From Planctomycetota bacterium (lineage in GTDB: Bacteria; Planctomycetota; Planctomycetia; Planctomycetales; Planctomycetaceae): a stretch of 38,439 nt of DNA. The notes beneath the pieces were generated by a model. It did not search any database. It was not told the DNA's origin and saw nothing but the letters and a program-made list of their open reading frames with translations. Both the position numbers and the translations under genes were made by a program. This document shows, piece by piece, positions 20,843-32,333 of this stretch (its first letter is position 1; each line of letters starts with the position of its first letter). The DNA is taken from NCBI GenBank assembly GCA_003696385.1, contig RFHO01000027.1, positions 1 through 38,439 on the forward strand, given 5' to 3'.

Positions 20843-20928
20843 TGGCCGAGGCGGGACTCGAACCCGCACGGGGATTTCTCCCCACCGGATTTTAAGTCCG
20901 GTGCGTCTGCCATTCCGCCACTCGGCCG
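20843..20928 (-). tRNA. tRNA-Leu (anticodon TAA)
   Basis: Reverse complement GGCCGAGTGGCGGAATGGCAGACGCACCGGACTTAAAATCCGGTGGGGAGAAATCCCCGTGCGGGTTCGAGTCCCGCCTCGGCCA: 7-bp acceptor stem (GGCCGAG/CTCGGCC), anticodon loop CTTAAAA with TAA, long variable arm, T-loop GGTTCGAGTCC. No encoded CCA. Confidence 0.96.
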
Positions 20929-28682: not shown

Positions 28683-30821
28683 TCAGCGGTCTGCCGCGGC
28701 GCCGTCGTGCACTCCGCGGTCGGCGGCGGTTGCCAGCTCGATCCGTCGATCGCAACGAGCCGCCAGCGACGAACGCCCCGTTACGACCACCATTGTCCAC
28801 GGGCGGCTTCTGTCCAGAAGGAAGTCCGCCACCGACTGCAGCACCTCGTCGGCCAATCCGTCCAGCGTCCCATCGATCAGCAACAGCCCCGGATTTCCGG
28901 CCACCGCGCGCGCGACGGTCAGCAGTCGGGCTTCGCTCTCCGAGAGCGGATCGCCGCCGCTGCTGAGCGGCGTTTCGAGCCCCTGGGGCAACAACAGCAC
29001 TTCTTCCAGCAGACGAACCCCTTGCAACGCCCAGCGCACCTGCTCCAGCGTCACGTCGCTGCGGCCCAGATGCACGTTCTCCGCCACCGTGCCGGCAAAC
29101 ACCTCCGGCCCCCGGGTCAGCGCGACGCGTCGCCGCAGCACATCCGGACGGCAATCGCGGGGATCGATCCCGTCCACAGTTGCGAACCCCGTTTCAGGTG
29201 CCCGTAAACCGAACAACACGTCCAACAGCAGGCTCTTGCCCGCCCCGCTCTTGCCCATCAGTGCGATCCGTTCGCCAGGCTGGATATCGAAGTCCACCGG
29301 ACAAAGTATGTGCAATCGATGCGGCCCCACGCACGAAAGGTTGCTGGCGCGAACGGCGGCCGGCCCCTCGGGAAAACCGTGCAGCAGCCCCCCCACCGTC
29401 TCGGTGGGAAGCCGCGTTATGTGACTGATCTTGTCCAACGACGCCACCAGGTCGTAAAAGCCTTCGAATTCTTTTCCCAGCTTCGTCAGGGCCCCCACGA
29501 TCATCGCCACGATCAGCTCGGCCGCCACCAGCTGCCCCAGCGTCAACTGGCCATGGATCACCAACCATCCCCCCAGAGCCAGCAACAACGTGCTGGAAAC
29601 CGCCTGAACCAGCAACGCCGCAATGATCTGCCGCATCAGGATGCGAAAATGCCCGAGCCGCGCGTCCAGGTAACCGAACACCAGCCGGTCCGTGCGGTCC
29701 AGCGCATATTCCAGTGCGCCGGCGAATTTGAACGAATGCAGGCAGCGGGCCAGATCCTCCAGCCACGCCGCCGTCTTGTATTTCCATTTCGACTCGCTGA
29801 TGCTCGTCGCCAGAGCGCCTCGCCCCAGCACGAACACGATCATCGCCAAAGCCGACAGCAGCGCCACGTCGAACGCCAGCAGCGTGGGATGGTAGAACGC
29901 CAACACCACCATCCCGACCACGATCGTCAGCACCAGCCCCAGACCGTCCAACAGCAACGACACGATCACCTTCTGCACGGTGACCACGTCGAAGAATCGG
30001 TTGGTCAACTCCGGGAGATACTCCTTCCCGAGGTGCTCACAATCCACACTCGGCAGACGAAAACTCAGATCCGCGGCCAGCCGCGCGAACAAGCGGCACT
30101 GGATCATTTCCAGCACGTACTTCTCCAACGCGATCAGCGCCCCCTGGAACGCCAGAAACGCAAACAGCATCAGCGCCAGAACCACCACCGGCTGAAAGAA
30201 TCGGCCGAAGGCCACCGTACTCACCAACGCTTCCACCGCGATCGGCGTCGCCAGTGTCAGCAACCCCGCGACCAGCGCATACACCAGCACGATCGCCACG
30301 TCCTGTTTCTCGGACAGCATCAAACGCCATACACGCTGTACCGGATCGCGATCGTACTCCGCATCACCGGCGAAACTCCGCTGAGCCGTGGCCGCATGCA
30401 GCAGCACACACCGGATCGGCTCGCCCCCAGGTACCAGATTTCGCAAAGCACGCAACGATACCGGTTGCGGATCCGTTGCCGCCGGATCGCTGCAAACCAG
30501 AACCCGCCGCCGGTGCAACCCCGCCGTGCACAGCCATTCCTGACGGTCGGGGAACCAGGTCAGCAGGCGTGCGCCGGCACTGGCCAACGTCTCCACTTCG
30601 GCCGCCGTGCAGTCGGTCACCCGACAGCGCAAGCCCAAGCTGCGAGCGGTTTCGGCCAGCCAACGCCACCAGTTCCCTTCGACTGCGCCGGGAAACGTCC
30701 GGATGGCTTCATCGAGCGCCTGACGAATCTCCGTCTGCTCGAATTTCAGATCCATCGAGGCCAACACGGCCTGCAGAGCGTGGACGGCCTCGTCGGTCCA
30801 GTGCACCGGTGGCTGGTTCAT
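28683..30821 (-). CDS. Type I secretion-like ABC transporter (TM + ATP-binding) with non-canonical nucleotide-binding domain
   Basis: Six-TM exporter core (DVAIVLVYALVAGLLTLATPIAVEALV...), Walker A MGKSGAGKS, but LSESE, LLLIDGTLDGL and VVVTGRSSL at the signature, Walker B/D-loop and H-loop positions. Start at MNQPPVHWTDEAV assumed. Confidence 0.9.
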   Translation of the reverse strand: MNQPPVHWTDEAVHALQAVLASMDLKFEQTEIRQALDEAIRTFPGAVEGNWWRWLAETARSLGLRCRVTDCTAAEVETLASAGARLLTWFPDRQEWLCTAGLHRRRVLVCSDPAATDPQPVSLRALRNLVPGGEPIRCVLLHAATAQRSFAGDAEYDRDPVQRVWRLMLSEKQDVAIVLVYALVAGLLTLATPIAVEALVSTVAFGRFFQPVVVLALMLFAFLAFQGALIALEKYVLEMIQCRLFARLAADLSFRLPSVDCEHLGKEYLPELTNRFFDVVTVQKVIVSLLLDGLGLVLTIVVGMVVLAFYHPTLLAFDVALLSALAMIVFVLGRGALATSISESKWKYKTAAWLEDLARCLHSFKFAGALEYALDRTDRLVFGYLDARLGHFRILMRQIIAALLVQAVSSTLLLALGGWLVIHGQLTLGQLVAAELIVAMIVGALTKLGKEFEGFYDLVASLDKISHITRLPTETVGGLLHGFPEGPAAVRASNLSCVGPHRLHILCPVDFDIQPGERIALMGKSGAGKSLLLDVLFGLRAPETGFATVDGIDPRDCRPDVLRRRVALTRGPEVFAGTVAENVHLGRSDVTLEQVRWALQGVRLLEEVLLLPQGLETPLSSGGDPLSESEARLLTVARAVAGNPGLLLIDGTLDGLADEVLQSVADFLLDRSRPWTMVVVTGRSSLAARCDRRIELATAADRGVHDGAAADR

Positions 30822-31094
30822 GGCCCAGAAGTGCGCGCGGTCCAAAAGGGTGAAGCGGACGAGGAAAGGCAGGTCATACGAAGCAGGCCGCACAGCCGCT
30901 CAACGTGTGGTCGGGCAGTATCGCCCCACCGGTCCGACGTGACAACACCGGTTCGCACCAGCCGTCCCACATCCAACGACGTCGCCACGGACGGCCCGTC
31001 GGGTTCTTCAGTGAGACGTCCCGTTCGCAAGCGGCGCACGGCGGGCCGATCGCCGCGCTCCCCGGATCCGGCGCCCGGCACCTCCGTCCCCACC

Positions 31095-32333
31095 TCACGG
31101 AATCAGAAAGAAACCACCACCGGTTTTCGCCGCGAGTTCCCGAAGCAGCGATCGCGCATCACGGTGCTCGAGCAGCTTGCGGTACTTCCCTGTCCCCAGC
31201 AGTCGGCGCGCCTCCGAAAGCCTGCCGGCATCGATCAACTCGTTCGCACGCCGCCATTCCGCCGGCAACTCCTCGTGAAACGCGAAGGTGTGGATCACGG
31301 TCCGCCCCGTCGGCAGCGCCGCCACCTCCTCCTGAACACGCCGCTGGAAACTGCCGTCGGTCAGGAAGAACACCGCGTCGGGCTTCAGCGACAGCGCCAG
31401 CCGGAGGGCCTCGGTCGGTTCCGTTCCCCCCTCTGCCCGCACCTGATGGACCCACGTCAGAAACCGCAGCTTGTTGCCGGTGGTGGCTGCTTGCATCGAG
31501 CGAGCCGGCATGGGAATCGGCTGCTGATTGAAAAAGACGATGAAAAACTCGTGTTCCGGCCCCATCGGCTGCAGCGACTTGACCAACTCCAGCTTCACGC
31601 GAATGAATCGTGTCTTGGCCGGCCCCGGATACGGATGATTCATGCTCTTGGAACAATCCAGCACATAGACGAAGCGCCGCCCCGCTGCCCTTCGACCAAA
31701 AAAACCGATCCCCGTCCCGTCGCCGTCCCCCGCACCATGCGCCGGTCCGACTTCTCCCCGCAGGTCGTCCCCGCTTGCCGCCAGCGAAGGCGACGCCGGG
31801 CCCACGTGTTCCAACCAATCCCACCGGCTGCCGCGGTGCGCCAGAACTTCCGCAACCCGGCGTTCCGCCGCCGCCAGATTCGGACGAACGTCCGGAACAG
31901 ACACAGAGACTCCCGCCCGCGACGAACCCGCACGGCTCGCCGACTTCCCGACCCCCTCCGACGAGTCGACCGTCCATCGCTCCGGCAACGGCGGCTGCAA
32001 CTCTGCGGCGGCCGCCCAGCGACTCGAAAGGTGGACCTCCCTTGCAGAACCTCCGCCGGTGAACGACCAGCAGGCCAAAGCGGCCAGCAAAATCCCGTGC
32101 AGCACCGTCGACACACAGACGGCAGCCGTCCAACGGCGATGAGAGGAAGACGGCCGCCCGGCATCGACTTCTGCCGCAGGTCGCTCGACCGGCGCCGTCG
32201 GTCGCTCGATGCCCGCGGCGTTCCGTGATCCGGCGATACGGTCGGCCGCACGGCGCAAACAATGTGGTCCCCGCCGGTCACCGCCTCCGGCGTGCGGCCG
32301 CCTCGCCCGACTCGAATGCCCCGTCCGGCTCAT
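31095..32333 (-). CDS. VWA-domain protein with N-terminal TM helix
   Basis: MIDAS-like [13 protein letters not shown] (DxSxS), [13 protein letters not shown] (T), [10 protein letters not shown] (D); TM-like [20 protein letters not shown]. Exact start uncertain. Confidence 0.82.

Follow-up and report, generated by a model that had tools for sequence, protein, structure and literature searches.

The window, that is, the whole stretch of 38,439 nucleotides analysed here, has been found to encode an ABC exporter subunit (P0001) in which the nucleotide-binding domain (NBD) keeps its fold and has lost most of its catalytic motifs. The protein belongs to a family that spans at least six bacterial phyla and is discrete from the canonical exporters. 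In the explanation favoured by us, to which a probability of roughly 0.6 is given, P0001 is part of a tripartite exporter whose own NBD no longer hydrolyses ATP and serves as a structural gate. ATP hydrolysis is the defining property of ABC exporters, and to our knowledge degenerate sites are known almost only where they are paired with a live site. With these natural proteins it becomes testable whether an ABC exporter can work without ATP hydrolysis of its own, its membrane domain being coupled to a gradient.

Structure and motif state of the window protein

The P0001 frame is read without any internal stop; its start codon is uncertain, since the open frame continues upstream to an alternative GTG at 30893. 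The Pfam scan has identified ABC_membrane (PF00664, 2e-9, residues 176-445) and ABC_tran (PF00005, 1.1e-16, residues 508-650). The AlphaFold2 monomer, predicted from a 49-sequence family alignment, has a mean pLDDT of 85.9 and a pTM of 0.86, with pLDDT of 96-98 over most of the NBD, and the closest PDB fold found by Foldseek is HlyB of the HlyB/D complex (8dck, 7sgr). By Pfam, AlphaFold2 and Foldseek the architecture is that of a T1SS ABC protein, with an ABC_membrane transmembrane domain (TMD) fused to an NBD fold. The N-terminal 145 residues are folded in the model and the Foldseek match to HlyB/PCAT1 is full-length; column conservation reveals no conserved catalytic Cys in this domain, which is missing from some members (L029, L056).

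According to PMC7756269, the hydrolytic site is made up of the Q-loop, the signature, the Walker B Glu and the H-loop, and function is blocked when the catalytic Glu of a canonical site is mutated. The original prediction had described an intact Walker A together with substitutions at these four positions, and all of its coordinates and motif letters were reproduced exactly by re-translation and exact placing (Table 1). P0001 thus lacks the canonical Q-loop, LSGGQ, Walker B Glu and switch His of T1SS ABC proteins. In a column alignment with 20 ABC exporters of related genomes, the same columns carry Gln (17/20), the Gly-Gly pair of the signature (18/20 and 20/20), Glu (20/20) and His (19/20). 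As the canonical letters fall in exactly these columns, the motifs are not misregistered. Misregistration, which had been named as a finding that would overturn the prediction, is ruled out by this alignment and by the AlphaFold2 model, where residues 628-641 form the signature helix and residues 646-650 the Walker B strand, both at pLDDT 96-98. Judged from these motifs, the ABC subunit is very probably hydrolysis-dead.

Table 1. Positions of the exporter genes, domains and key residues in the window
Feature	Position	Strand	Basis
ABC exporter P0001, 712 aa, TMD and predicted hydrolysis-dead NBD	28683..30821	-	translation, Pfam scan, family alignment
N-terminal domain, residues 1-145, putatively C39-like from its position and the model	30387..30821	-	AlphaFold2, column conservation, Foldseek
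Transmembrane domain, residues 157-475, most conserved part of the family	29397..30353	-	Pfam, alignment, column conservation
His311, between TM3 and TM4, kept in ~99% of the 128-member set; canonical exporters have Asp/Asn here	29889..29891	-	column conservation
Glu435, TM6, kept in ~98% of the family but not conserved among canonical exporters; candidate site of protonation	29517..29519	-	column conservation
Nucleotide-binding domain, residues 490-697, with preserved fold and loss of catalytic motifs	28731..29354	-	Pfam, alignment, AlphaFold2
Walker A GKSGAGKS, intact	29232..29255	-	exact placing on translation
Q-loop position, Arg570 in place of Gln	29112..29114	-	placing and column alignment
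Signature LSESE (residues 626-630) in place of LSGGQ	28932..28946	-	exact placing
Walker B LLLIDG with Asp650; Gly651 (GGG, 28869-28871) stands in place of the catalytic Glu	28869..28886	-	exact placing
Switch-His position, Gly682 (GGG), in VVVTGRSS (28767-28790)	28776..28778	-	exact placing
HlyD-type periplasmic adaptor, 481 aa	26916..28361	-	PF13437 1.1e-8, TIGR01843 4.7e-16, conserved neighbour
TolC-type outer membrane factor, 692 aa	24826..26904	-	PF02321 2e-24, conserved neighbour

Gene neighbourhood

Genes for HlyD and TolC lie beside the ABC gene in all 47 loci that have room for them, the other 4 of the 51 loci ending at a contig edge, which bears out the expectation that these neighbours are always present. 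The ABC-HlyD-TolC trio also occurs in Pseudomonadota, Acidobacteriota, Verrucomicrobiota and Bacteroidota, and the gene order is retained by Pseudomonadota members that have no nucleotide motifs. Moreover, a natural ABC-HlyD fusion (L067:8956-12588, G052:C7) has been found as a single frame of 1211 aa, with ABC at 18-734 and HlyD at 785-1207, and this fusion supports a putative physical complex of the two proteins. The genome with the fusion carries a second, unfused copy as well.

A dead subunit could be explained if it paired with a canonical ABC half-transporter encoded elsewhere, the dimer then having one dead and one live site. Such pairs have precedents in TmrAB, TM287/288 and MsRv1273c/72c, as given in PMC7756269 and PMC12038006, and the genome has other ABC_membrane genes. 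However, there is only one ABC gene in the HlyD-TolC operon and no canonical second half-transporter, and neither a second ABC exporter nor a canonical half-transporter recurs in the neighbourhoods examined across six phyla. Further, most genomes with a member of the family have no LssB/NHLM-type ABC at 1e-100. The catalytic ABC partner that the original prediction had allowed for was thus found in none of the neighbourhoods searched, and pairing of this kind is considered decidedly improbable. The exporter rather probably operates without any partner ATPase.

Neighbourhood clustering also gave no recurrent family of cargo or motor genes, and hence no secreted protein of the kind that belongs to a T1SS. 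A SecA-like substitute motor, an idea taken from PMC4452313, is regarded as unlikely, since that motor belongs to a different locus and no SecA-like cluster is present among the neighbour clusters read by eye. The putative VWA-domain gene at 31095-32333(-) was set aside as a part of the system, as it is found beside the window gene only and is not conserved in other neighbourhoods. This gene lies on the same strand directly upstream of the ABC gene, and its PF13519 match of 22.4 bits is below the cut-off of 27. Minority neighbours, named by eye, include a LysR-type regulator in 23 loci (e.g. L152:4153-5058) and an HDOD-like protein in 15. The sole tRNA of the window is a tRNA-Leu (TAA) at 20843-20927(-).

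Extent and distinctness of the family

Homologues of P0001 were found in 36 of 59 related genomes, and the family profile detected members in 29 of 294 genomes across its own phylum. In the phyla of a verrucomicrobial, a methylococcal and an acidobacterial locus, members were detected in 3 of 195, 6 of 299 and 8 of 199 genomes, respectively. A GTDB contig scan gave at least 559 relatives, some of them in Verrucomicrobiota, Acidobacteriota, Myxococcota and Pseudomonadota, from which the 80 loci most like the query were kept, so that the tallies over-represent close relatives. Bacteroidota and Sphingomonadales members were added from plasmid records. Several of the family loci lie in fragmented MAGs whose species labels are questionable.

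Against the family profile, full members reach about 640-1060 bits and the Pseudomonadota/Bacteroidota branch 376-422, whereas canonical exporters do not exceed 208. P0001 falls far short of the curated T1SS cut-offs (TIGR01846, 159.6 vs 725.55; TIGR03375, 154.9 vs 693.1). A dedicated model for the family was found neither in Pfam nor in NCBIfam, and a motor-dead, multi-phylum exporter family is absent from the libraries and literature searched; the family may carry a name elsewhere, for instance in InterPro, CDD, TCDB or subscription papers. Hence, the family is apparently undescribed so far, while the kind of machine, a tripartite exporter, is already known.

Loss of catalytic motifs across the family

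The motif tally covered 128 members, of which 126 could be read at both the Glu and the His position. Both residues are kept in 8 of these 126, Glu alone in 21, His alone in one and neither in 96, and the substitution seen in the window protein is thus a loss common to a large family. LSGGQ is kept in three members of the 128-member tally, the Q-loop Gln in one and the full canonical set in none. The eight members with Glu and His are Isosphaeraceae/Gemmataceae-like and have LSxGQ-type signatures without the Q-loop Gln. Five Acidobacteriota members (L247, L249-L252) come nearest to the canonical state with GKS, LSRGQ, DE and His, and have Gly at the Q-loop Gln; they are possible living intermediates and could form live/dead comparison pairs. 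Judged by these motifs, the Isosphaeraceae/Gemmataceae clades and the five Acidobacteriota members could still hydrolyse ATP. Close homologues with canonical motifs, which would have pointed to local decay or sequencing error, did not appear, and partial sets are confined to scattered members. A few outlying clades keep Glu and His with LSxGQ.

The residues that replace Glu vary by lineage (Gly, Ser, Asp, Arg, Ala, Gln, Thr), and so do those at the switch His (Gly, Ser, Arg, Asn, Gln, Ala). Slow or non-canonical hydrolysis, with other residues substituting for the lost ones, could be argued from the members that keep Glu or His, by which the family may tolerate a lowered rate, and from the invariant Asp before the Glu; it is considered very improbable, as the replacing residues differ between the lineages and no common substitute is seen. 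By parsimony on a TMD-only tree, at least 9 changes of Glu, at least 4 of His and at least 11 of Walker A are required. The canonical outgroup branches are too long for this tree to be rooted and the motif losses to be ordered.

Walker A GK[ST] is present in 109 of 127 members and missing in 18, and all 126 readable members have the Walker B Asp. As most members keep both, ATP binding may still matter. It can accordingly be proposed that ATP bound at Walker A holds or opens the NBD dimer without being hydrolysed, and that the protein is a ligand-gated conduit or a regulator. The degenerate sites of TM287/288, MRP1 and CFTR are a precedent for such a device, and the Walker A of P0001 itself is perfect. 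On the other hand, Walker A has been altered on about 11 branches with the TMD and operon kept, it is absent in the Pseudomonadota branch, and LSGGQ and the Q-loop, the partner motifs that clamp ATP, are lost too. This proposal is regarded as rather unlikely. The repeated loss of Walker A makes the ATP binding entertained in the original prediction unlikely as an obligatory trait of the family as a whole, whereas individual members including P0001 may bind ATP. A role of the NBD as a gate, which had also been suggested, or as a structural element remains the favoured reading.

The loss is furthest advanced in five Pseudomonadota members, where Walker A, signature and Walker B are no longer recognisable; L242, for example, has TESSWIQRQ, PLLPAELL and VVILNQ at the motif positions. 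Five Pseudomonadota/Bacteroidota proteins were scanned with Pfam, and in four of them ABC_tran is undetected, whereas ABC_membrane is detected. In the monomer model of L244, with only 14 sequences behind it, the NBD-like fold is still seen, with pLDDT mostly 80-93, and the top PDB matches of the model are ABC exporters. The Pseudomonadota loci L241-L245, L265 and L269 are without any nucleotide motif, and several RefSeq records still describe such proteins as ABC transporter ATP-binding. Entries named 'ABC transporter ATP-binding protein', e.g. WP_169574853.1 and WP_004920602.1, are probably mis-described. One Pseudomonadota member lies directly downstream of a DUF2309 gene. The Pseudomonadota members also include SARO_RS19820 of Novosphingobium aromaticivorans DSM 12444, whose operon (SARO_RS19820-19810) is carried on pNL2.

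Selective constraint and conserved sites

The mean identity within the family is 57% for the TMD and 40% for the NBD, the TMD being higher in 1125 of 1128 pairs. In canonical exporters of related genomes the order is reversed (NBD 46%, TMD 23%; TMD higher in 0 of 105 pairs), although this comparison set mixes several families and a single genus is the fairer control. In the same five genomes of one genus, the NBD/TMD ratio of dN was 2.50 for the family, as against 1.06 and 1.54 for two canonical exporters. For 18 close pairs with dS below 2, the median dN/dS was 0.048 in the TMD and 0.095 in the NBD. An NBD value of about 0.1, above that of the TMD, means that the NBD has been kept under constraint, though under a relaxed one. 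In a single gene, lost catalytic motifs could in themselves be due to decay into a pseudogene or to sequencing error, but the same state is found in more than 100 genomes with intact frames and with this low NBD dN/dS; such an explanation is refuted for the family and its chance is negligible. The earlier view that the gene is not a pseudogene is thus upheld by the intact frame and by purifying selection on the gene family.

The conserved positions of the NBD are mostly structural (ARA637-639, Pro644, Asp650, Gly623 and Asn582). In the TMD, the conserved stretches ELxNRFF (271-277) and KYxxAAWLEELAR (347-359) match the coupling-helix regions. Conserved charged residues of the TMD are Glu435, His311, Lys347, Arg388 and His391; at most of these positions canonical exporters show no such conservation. 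Exceptions occur at two of these sites, with Trp in place of Glu435 in a few members and Ser or Asn in place of His311 in five Acidobacteriota members. Glu435 and His311 are candidate proton sites by their conservation.

Comparison with known systems

P0001 shares with the T1SS ABC proteins of the HlyB or LapB(LssB) kind the TMD-NBD half-transporter and the HlyD and TolC partners, and its N-domain may be C39-like as in these proteins; it differs from them in the lost NBD motifs and in having no conserved substrate gene adjoining. Its top NCBIfam match is to the NHLP export ABC1/ABC2 models (TIGR03796/TIGR03797), with 164.2 bits against a cut-off of 853.3 for TIGR03796, whereas planctomycete NHLM-type ABCs have the canonical Glu, His and SGGQ. 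The heterodimeric exporters TM287/288, TmrAB, BmrCD and MsRv1273c/72c have a degenerate Glu, signature and His as well. In contrast to these one-sided heterodimers, the only ABC gene of the present operon is the degenerate one, and a homodimer would therefore have two dead sites. One-sided degenerate sites are the only ones described in the available text of two reviews, one on tripartite and type I systems (PMC8277102) and one on degenerate sites (PMC7756269).

A SecA_DEAD/HlyD/Peptidase_M50/OEP locus of PVC and proteobacteria is described in the available text of Kamneva et al. 2015 (PMC4452313). It resembles the present operon in its HlyD and OEP genes, its overlapping phyla and its unusual energiser, but it is centred on a SecA-like protein, and that text reports no ABC gene. 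Further, a putative HlyBD2-OMP2 pump of Blastomonas fulva consists of hlyB (1659 bp), hlyD and omp, with its best match in Novosphingobium aromaticivorans (PMC9505733, available text). From this published description the pump probably belongs to the family reported here; the same text presents it as an ordinary ABC pump and, as far as it is available, does not mention the state of the NBD.

Possible mechanism

In the favoured explanation, with the NBD as a structural gate, two copies of the ABC subunit would pair with each other and dock as a homodimer onto HlyD and TolC, and the NBD dimer would act as a clamp or gate and not as a motor. Such a homodimer would not hydrolyse ATP, and transport would run without an ATPase of its own. 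The leading candidates for the drive would be proton coupling or the substrate's own gradient acting through the TMD, possibly by way of Glu435, His311, Lys347 and His391. Proton coupling as such is proposed only tentatively from the conserved residues. The wider proposal is equally speculative, namely that former ABC exporters of several phyla have become independent of ATP, with a pseudo-ATPase NBD clamp and with export through HlyD-TolC driven by proton-motive force or a substrate gradient via TMD residues specific to the family. ATP-independent transport has been claimed in the laboratory for isolated ABC membrane domains, and an ATP-independent family, if true, would be the natural counterpart of those claims.

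A second degenerate exporter in the same genome

A second, unrelated ABC exporter with a dead NBD (P0002) was observed in the same genome (G000 contig C471:10732-12714, L063/L270). It has no Walker A (SLEPLEARAVA), LDPGQ as signature, VEEP at Walker B and Gln at the switch His. No canonical exporter partner is present on the stretch of contig that was read (11.5 kb). Of 40 related genomes, 38 have homologues of P0002, and the seven that were aligned share its losses.
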